NCBI GenBank assembly: GCA_030613025.1
Contig: JAUWMT010000018.1
Coordinates: 1 to 44,905 of the forward strand
Direction of reading: 5' to 3'
Source of the DNA: Candidatus Cloacimonadota bacterium
Lineage (GTDB): Bacteria; Cloacimonadota; Cloacimonadia; JGIOTU-2
DNA length: 44,905 bases
Under the pieces are notes generated by a model. That model was not told the origin of the DNA. It was given only the letters and a program-made list of their open reading frames with translations, and made no database searches. Positions 30,274 to 44,905 of the stretch are shown one piece after another (within the stretch, counting starts at the first letter, position 1; each line of letters starts with the position of its first letter). The translations under genes and the position numbers were made by a program.

Positions 30274-30383
30274 TAGCATAGAAAGAAAATTGTGCGAAAT
30301 TTTTGTCAATTGAAACTCCCTTAAAGTTTATTCAAAAAAATTTGACAATAAATTGCCAATGCAAAATTTACCCTTAAATTATT

Positions 30384-30679
30384 AGTTTACTCTAAAAAGG
30401 TTATGATTAGAAATATGTTAGAAAAATTTTTAAATATTTGGAAACCGATCCCAGTTAAATGAATATGGATTTCACGGGATAAATGAATCGGTTTAAAGTT
30501 CCTATCTTCTTATTAACCACCAAAGGACTGTTTACTCCGTCTTTGACGGATAAGTTGGTGGTTAATGAAACAAAAAAAACATTAACCGTTTTATTTATCC
30601 CGTGAAATGGCTTTTTATCTTTTTTATTTCACTGGGAACGGTTTCTCGTTTTAATAAATCTGGCTTTATAGGGTGAACT
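30384..30679. repeat. Large nested-palindrome element, copy 1 (long form)
   Basis: The element occupies most of the gap 30310-30716. Outer arms: AGTTTACTCTAAAAAG (30384-30399) with CTTTATAGGGTGAACT (30664-30679), pairing mostly with G-U allowance. Second arms: 30441-30460 with 30626-30645 (18 of 20 bases pair). Third: ATTTCACGGGATAAAT (30469-30484) with its exact complement at 30593-30608. Fourth: ATTAACCACCAA (30512-30523) with TTGGTGGTTAAT (30555-30566). Centre: CCGTC-TTT-GACGG (30537-30549). The whole can fold as one long interrupted hairpin. Not coding. It sits between divergent genes, just before the peptidase. Confidence 0.9.
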
Positions 30680-30716
30680 CAATTATAAAAGAAAATTTGT
30701 TATCGGAGAAATAGAT

Positions 30717-37286: not shown

Positions 37287-37342
37287 TACTCGAAATTAAT
37301 ATGATGTCTAAAAATATATCTTCATTTATCCAATTATTTATA

Positions 37343-37531
37343 AGTATACTCTAAAGGTTTATGATTATAAATATGTTAGAAAAATTCTCATATTTGGAAA
37401 CCGATGAATCGGTTGAAAGTCGCTATCATCTTATTAACCACCAACTTAAGTTGGTGGTTAATGAAACAAAAAAAATATTAATCGTTTTAACGGTTTCTCG
37501 GTTTAATAAATCTGGCTTTTTAGAGTGAACT
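37343..37531. repeat. Large nested-palindrome element, copy 2 (short form)
   Basis: In the gap 37287-37638, a shorter version of the 30384-30679 element. Outer arms: ACTCTAAA (37349-37356) with TTTAGAGT (37519-37526). GAAACCG with CGGTTTC forms the next arms. The centre is a perfect 30-base palindrome at 37433-37462 (arm ATTAACCACCAACTT). Relative to copy 1 it lacks about 35 bases on the left arm after GAAACCGAT and about 44 on the right arm before ACGGTTTCTCG. The shared blocks TAGAAAAATT, GAATCGGTT, CTTATTAACCACCAA, GGTTAATGAAACAAAAAAAA and TTTAATAAATCTGGCTTT leave no doubt about homology. Confidence 0.92.
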
Positions 37532-37638
37532 CATTTATATATTTAAATATGAAAGAAGTTTTGATGAAATTTGATAAAAGACTCCAGGCAAAATATTTCA
37601 CTTTTCAAATTTCAAGTCTCAAATCCAAGGAGTTTTGA

Positions 37639-44346: not shown

Positions 44347-44763
44347 ATGAAAGATTTTGAACCAAAGATTGTCTGTTTCTTATGTAAATGGTGTACATAT
44401 TCCGGTGCAGATCTTGCCGGTACATCACGAATGAAATATCCGCCAAACGGAGTGGTGATCAAAACACTATGCTCATCACGAGTGGATCCGCAGCATATAC
44501 TTCTTGCATTTAGCAAAGGATGCGACGGCGTTTTCATCGGCGGATGTCATCCCGGTGACTGTCATTATCAAAGCGGAAATTATAAGACAAAAAGAAGAAT
44601 CATCTTACTTAAAAAAGTCCTGGAACAACTTGGTCTAAATACCAATCGTCTTCGCCTTGAATGGATCTCGGCAAGCGAAGGAAAGAAATTCGCCAACACT
44701 ATGACAGAATTTACAGACCAGATCAAAAAATTGGGTCCTATTCCAAAAATTAACTGTGAATAA
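44347..44763 (+). CDS. mvhD: MvhD-like [2Fe-2S] electron-transfer subunit
   Basis: The 138-residue protein shows the MvhD cysteine pattern: IVCFLCKWCTYSGADLAG, then TLCSSRVDPQHIL and GVFIGGCHPGDCHYQSGNY. It connects HdrA to a hydrogenase or formate dehydrogenase in methanogens and to other donors in bacteria. It starts 33 bases after hdrA and is the last gene in the window; no hydrogenase or dehydrogenase gene is visible before the palindromic element that follows three bases after its stop. Confidence 0.93.
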   Translation: MKDFEPKIVCFLCKWCTYSGADLAGTSRMKYPPNGVVIKTLCSSRVDPQHILLAFSKGCDGVFIGGCHPGDCHYQSGNYKTKRRIILLKKVLEQLGLNTNRLRLEWISASEGKKFANTMTEFTDQIKKLGPIPKINCE

Positions 44764-44766
44764 ATG

Positions 44767-44905
44767 AGTTTACTCTAAAAAGTGTGTAATTAGAAATATG
44801 TTAGAAAATGCATCAAATATTTGGAAACCGATCCCAGTTAAATGAATACAAATTTAACGGGACAAGTGAATCGGTTACAATTAGCTATCTTCCTATTAAC
44901 CACCA
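44767..44905. repeat. Large nested-palindrome element, copy 3 (left half only, cut by window end)
   Basis: AGTTTACTCTAAAAAG at 44767-44782 is identical to the left outer arm of copy 1. TAGAAATATGTTAGAAAA, ATTTGGAAACCGATCCCAG, GAATCGGTT and AGCTATCTTCCTATTAACC follow in the same order. It carries the extension after GAAACCGAT that copy 2 lacks (CCCAGTTAAATGAATA...TTTAACGGGACAAGT), so it is of the long type. The right half lies beyond the window. Confidence 0.88.

Follow-up and report, generated by a model that had tools for sequence, protein, structure and literature searches.

Cassette-bearing inverted repeats of Cloacimonadota as probable miniature transposons

What are the long, nested palindromes that recur between the genes of a Cloacimonadota genome, and how did they come to be there? 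The window analysed here, 44,905 nucleotides long, is the entire contig C66 of a Cloacimonadota MAG related to Ca. Celaenobacter (2.83 Mb in 98 contigs), the nearest relatives of which by protein are Candidatus Cloacimonadota MAGs, including Ca. Celaenobacter antarcticus. The original prediction had placed three copies of one element in this window, and reading the sequence confirmed them; their places stood, but their boundaries had to be corrected to GAG..CTC, giving copy 1 at 30383-30680, copy 2 at 37342-37532 and a start of copy 3 at 44766. Our results make it very probable that these repeats are non-autonomous transposons (MITEs) with exchangeable tip cassettes, presumably moved in trans by a distant IS1182-like DDE transposase. 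The features of the three copies are as follows.

30377-30382, unstranded: left target-site duplication (TSD) of copy 1, AATTAT, same as 30681-30686; one AATTAT at the empty site in G005
30383-30680, plus strand: copy 1, complete MITE of 298 bp, with a cassette at each of its three hairpin tips and the initial G mutated to T
30384-30399, plus strand: left terminal inverted repeat (TIR) of copy 1, AGTTTACTCTAAAAAG, pairing with 30664-30679; its ends are those of the insertion sequence (IS) described below
30450-30484, plus strand: left-tip cassette of copy 1, CCCAGTTAAAT..ATTTCACGGGATAAAT, 35 bp; short-form copies, copy 2 among them, lack it
30512-30566, unstranded: core palindrome of copy 1, arms ATTAACCACCAA / TTGGTGGTTAAT, with a tip cassette at 30524-30554
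30593-30636, plus strand: right-tip cassette of copy 1, ATTTATCCCGTGAAAT..ATTTCACTGGG, 44 bp; missing at the same site in G001, free-standing in G008
30664-30680, minus strand: right TIR of copy 1, GAGTTCACCCTATAAAG on the minus strand
30681-30686, unstranded: right TSD of copy 1, AATTAT, from flank comparison and the G005 empty site
37336-37341, unstranded: left TSD of copy 2, ATTTAT, same as 37533-37538
37342-37532, plus strand: copy 2, complete short-form MITE, all three tips closed
37533-37538, unstranded: right TSD of copy 2, ATTTAT, from flank comparison
44760-44765, unstranded: presumed left TSD of copy 3, ATAAAT, read directly; shares bases with the stop codon of the ORF upstream
44766-44905, plus strand: copy 3, MITE with left cassette, cut inside the core palindrome by the end of contig C66, its right side being absent from the assembly

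Transposon hallmarks and spread of the family

The family is far from limited to three copies. A BLAST search of the host genome with copy 2 as query returned 94 pieces, which, merged with a scan for TIRs and a search of relatives, gave about 40-44 sites, a count made uncertain by element halves at contig ends (a hand-made list that includes TIR-only matches has 52). Sister species carried further copies, with family matches in 13 of 60 related genomes, chiefly of the same family. A diverged member with TIRs, a TTAAT direct repeat and the core TTAACCCCCAACTTAAGTTGGGGGTTAA was found in a Neomarinimicrobiota contig (L102:1471-1663), where it may reflect inter-phylum transfer or misbinning. None of the 48 copies checked sits within an ORF of at least 100 amino acids.

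Both ends of the element carry TIRs of ~17 bp (GAGTYYACTCTAAAAAG), for which a scan gave 110 matches at up to 3 mismatches compared with 18 for a reversed control. Complete copies start with GAG(T/C)TTACTCTAAAAAG and finish with CTTTTTAGAGTGGACTC, with 6-bp direct repeats outside. These flanking 6-mers were exact duplicates in 22 of 47 copies and differed by at most one mismatch in 29 of 47, compared with 2.4% and 14%, respectively, when flanks were paired across different copies. The duplications follow the consensus ANNNNT (initial A in all 29 near-matching copies, final T in 25) and are eroded in some copies.

Sister species of the genus also preserve empty sites, in which the joined flanks are contiguous at identities of up to 93-95%. 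Upstream of gpsA, the host genome reads AAGGTT, GAG..CTC, AAGGTT (in full, ttttttAAGGTT, element, AAGGTTaatt), and G005 and G001 have a single AAGGTT (TTTTTTAAGGTTTATT). The site of copy 1 is filled in G001 and empty in G005, G007, G002, G006 and G003; G005 shows a clean junction, the more distant genomes noisier ones. Copy 2 has a counterpart in L062 and L064 and is absent from L061 and L063. A miniature inverted-repeat element had been among the candidates of the original prediction, and this identity is borne out by the TIRs, the TSDs, the unoccupied sites of sister species and an IS whose ends match.

Modular stems and changes at the same site

The interior of the MITE consists of three short stems nested in the TIR stem: left (ACCGAT/ATCGGT), core (ACCACCAA/TTGGTGGT) and right (AACCG/CGGTT). 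As our module table records, every stem tip is either closed or carries a hairpin cassette of 28-44 bp, and it is this modular build that produces the nested palindromes. The left tip is GATG or the 35-bp cassette CCCAGTTAAAT..ATTTMACGGG, in place of which short-form copies such as copy 2 read ACCGATGAATCGG. At the core, the closed form is CTTAAG; a 31-bp cassette, CTTATCCGTCAAAGACGGAGTAAACAGTTCT, is found in L050 and L055, its reverse complement (30 of 31 bases) in copy 1 and L029, and a different cassette in L196 and L197. One core-tip cassette lies between the core arms in opposite orientations in L050 and L055 versus L195 and L029. The right tip is TTTC/TTTT or a 44-bp sequence ending in ATTTCACTGGG. 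Tip combinations included none, left only, right only, left and right, left and core, core and right, and all three. Most copies have a perfect central palindrome, and in a further class (L046, L054, L151, L211 and L260) half of the core is replaced by a CTCTCGTTCCCAAAGC..GCTTGGTAACGAG block, in full CTCTCGTTCCCAAAGC..CTTTGGGAACG..CGTTACCAAGC..GCTTGGTAACGAG.

In elements that carry a left as well as a right cassette, the two pair into a long stacked hairpin, as in copy 1, whereas a side cassette on its own (L208) folds as a side branch. Copy 1 was predicted to fold as one long hairpin with a 16-base perfect arm (30469-30484 with 30593-30608); the arm is present, and the fold, at -104.4 kcal/mol (z = -10.6), was equalled by 0 of 200 dinucleotide shuffles. 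Copy 2 is also strongly folded, scoring better than 200 of 200 shuffles (z = -5.5, DNA parameters).

Cassette content differs between species at four orthologous sites with similar flanks. The G001 ortholog of copy 1 (L208), at 229 bp, lacks the core and right cassettes; L064, the counterpart of copy 2, has a left cassette and has lost the core; and the pairs L043 and L196, and L036 and L203, likewise differ in their cassettes. The right cassette lies within MITEs in 11 of its 11 occurrences in the host genome. G001 has it once alone, and in G008, which belongs to another genus, all 13 occurrences seem to lie outside the MITE. Units of CCCRGTGAAAT..ATTTCACTGGG were also seen in G008 as hairpin repeats, both tandem and nested (L277-L287, L329-L356), and these may be a free-standing source or relative of the right cassette.

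Each of these same-site differences may be a gain or a loss of a cassette, and they are read more simply as deletion or as gene conversion from one copy to another. Cassettes would probably change in place by deletion of palindromes during replication, by template switching or by gene conversion between dispersed copies. A bolder idea, which we consider doubtful, is that hairpin tips act as acceptor sites: a palindrome-directed process, such as template switching or a cruciform-tip enzyme, would time and again capture, flip and remove short palindromes of foreign origin (among them the CCCGTGAAAT..ATTTCACTGGG repeat) at the stem apices of a MITE that is already inserted. If this were true, elements would enlarge and diverge where they stand, one hairpin cassette within another.

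A probable mobiliser with the same ends

The element itself encodes no transposase, as originally noted, yet an IS with matching ends occurs in the same genome. Its ends, TGAGTTCACT(C/A)TAAAAACC, were found 15 times as left and 19 times as right ends, every one at a contig end, with 114-134 bp of identical or near-identical sequence inward of each and the start of an ORF on one side. This pattern indicates a multicopy IS whose body collapsed out of the assembly. The 6-mers flanking these ends are also mostly A....T, and for 10 of the 15 left ends the flanking 6-mer recurs at a right end (null mean 5.5, P = 0.01). Contigs C4, C5, C43, C44, C46 and C89 are among many that end inside one IS, some 115-140 bp from its edge, which accounts for much of the fragmentation of this MAG.

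No IS body was found in the host genome (G000), nor by DNA search in relatives; since it is missing from the host assembly, the transposase could be read in relatives only. G005 has the same right end followed by the C-terminal 298 amino acids of a DDE transposase, and a phylum-wide search uncovered complete ISs in G094 (TSD AATATT) and G117 (TSD ATTGAT), with TIRs GAGTTCCCTCTAAAAACC and GAGTCCGCTCTAAAAAG / GAGTTCACTATAAAAAGG. Partial ISs in G005, G116 and G111 share these TIRs and likewise have a transposase of IS1182-like type. The transposases carry a DUF772 N terminus and a DDE_Tnp_1_6 domain, and three of them (L272-L274) scored 87.6-122.5 bits against the IS1182 model NF033551, below its curated cut-off of 270. 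By its sequence, the putative mobiliser is therefore a distant relative of IS1182 and, by that cut-off, not a member.

We propose that the MITE is probably moved by this larger IS. Mobilisation in trans is inferred, because MITE and IS have just the TIR in common; with no shared subterminal sequence, the MITE is not simply the present IS with its interior removed. The IS would supply the distant IS1182-like DDE transposase, which would bind the TIRs common to both elements and cut the MITE out, and the MITE would then enter A/T-rich sites between genes through a staggered cut of 6 bp.

Other candidates for the mobiliser were set aside: ISs found by a DUF772 search have different ends, and an own-genome match (L232) is an IS5-type element adjoining an IS end. 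Searches for the transposase and core palindrome in viral contigs, and searches of phage records, gave no match, and a plasmid search returned just 25-28% identical transposases. Separately, G009 and G017 contain other MITE families (L290-L295) that share the TIR TGAGTYCACTATAAAAACC and have unlike interiors (for example, ACCATTAAAATGGTT..CCCACAACT..AGTTGTGGG), some folding nearly end to end (L290, -75 kcal/mol).

Alternative readings and known relatives

The strong folds could instead mark a structured RNA, or an mRNA-processing element, that the host has domesticated: in co-directional gaps the hairpin would be co-transcribed with the operon and set transcript stability or attenuation, and its structure would be under selection. 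Cleavage of mRNA has been reported for ERIC and Correia elements, which act as its trigger (PMC3049150), and orientation gives a further hint of an effect at the mRNA level: between co-directional genes, own-genome copies follow gene orientation in 16 of 21 cases (16:5, P = 0.027), or 21 of 27 with non-orthologous copies elsewhere added (P = 0.006), counts that rest on mechanically called ORFs. This bias is not expected for a purely neutral MITE. However, divergent and convergent gaps also carry insertions, sister species have empty sites, and cassettes, even the entire core, are lost independently. Across 16 short-form copies, 47 pairs were near-invariant (covariation term +0.93), with double changes in 2 of 47, both from one rearranged copy, so covariation does not support a conserved RNA. 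Subfamilies that share a TIR differ from one another in both core arms (CCACCAA.., CCCACAA.., CCCCCAA..), such that the palindrome is kept while its sequence shifts; either selection or arm-to-arm conversion could explain this. Rfam contained no family at the gathering threshold, a relaxed search giving far sub-threshold matches only. With arms lost and gained independently and without covariation, a structured RNA is unlikely to be its primary nature. For a MITE, any effect on neighbouring mRNA, through attenuation or processing of the operon hairpin, would be secondary. A pattern scan found no terminator-like site in copies 1 and 2, and an intrinsic terminator was rejected as the identity.

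A hairpin-rich, intergenic, multicopy element might also be moved by a Y1/HUH single-strand transposase of the REP/RAYT or IS200/IS605 type that recognises hairpins, but those systems lack both a target duplication and a long TIR, whereas the 6-bp TSDs and ~17-bp TIRs here are shared with a DDE IS; the TSDs refute such movement for the whole element, making this reading highly improbable, with scope left for it in the small cassettes alone. Least probable of all is that the chromosome maintains the element as a nucleoid-protein or cruciform site, also proposed originally: the perfect central palindrome of most copies would suit it, but no evidence for it emerged, and the copies are scattered and recently inserted, bear transposition hallmarks and face empty sites in sister species.

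Like ERIC and Correia (CE/NEMIS) elements, these MITEs are long, imperfectly palindromic intergenic repeats that fold as one hairpin, but sequence, ends and hosts appear to differ. ERIC and Correia elements also have long and short forms. The closest architecture is that of BOX in Streptococcus pneumoniae, boxA-boxB(n)-boxC, a MITE-like composite with TIRs, TSDs and optional internal modules that vary by copy (PMC3049150). Its middle module folds with few contacts to the rest, and pneumococcal repeats are reported to insert into one another (PMC3049150). The likeness is in architecture only, with host and ends unrelated: boxB is a tandem array, whereas cassettes here occupy stem tips at three positions, those on the left and right can pair, and the core cassette occurs in both orientations. 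MITE transcripts often fold into stable hairpins, according to PMC10969869, which describes QMITE2 of Coxiella burnetii as having TIRs and direct repeats, with a transcript that is predicted to fold stably into one hairpin over its full length; its TSD (7-9 bp) and TIR (23-29 bp) differ from those here, and the passage on it mentions no cassette structure. The mobiliser transposase resembles the IS1182 family in matching its model over nearly full length with DUF772 and DDE_Tnp_1_6, but at 87-122 bits against a cut-off of 270. IS1272, of that family, replaces an inverted repeat (stem-loop) without a TSD (PMC5678879); by contrast, the mobiliser here makes a 6-bp TSD in A/T-rich sites, which speaks against insertion by such replacement.

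The element is thus a new MITE family, a modular variant comparable to pneumococcal BOX. Our search of the literature on Cloacimonadota found no description of repeat elements, MITEs or inverted repeats, and the ends, host, tip-cassette layout and same-site exchange appear undescribed in the literature searched. Because the same ends recur beyond this family, elsewhere in the phylum and in one contig of Neomarinimicrobiota, they mark a larger group of transposons.

What emerges is a family of MITEs for which a probable mobiliser, a rule for target choice and empty sites throughout a genus are in hand. Assemblies of these uncultured Cloacimonadota genomes are, moreover, broken by the elements. 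Editing of long palindromes has mostly been studied with artificial palindromes, and the same-site cassette differences between close species offer a natural record of such editing in chromosomes.
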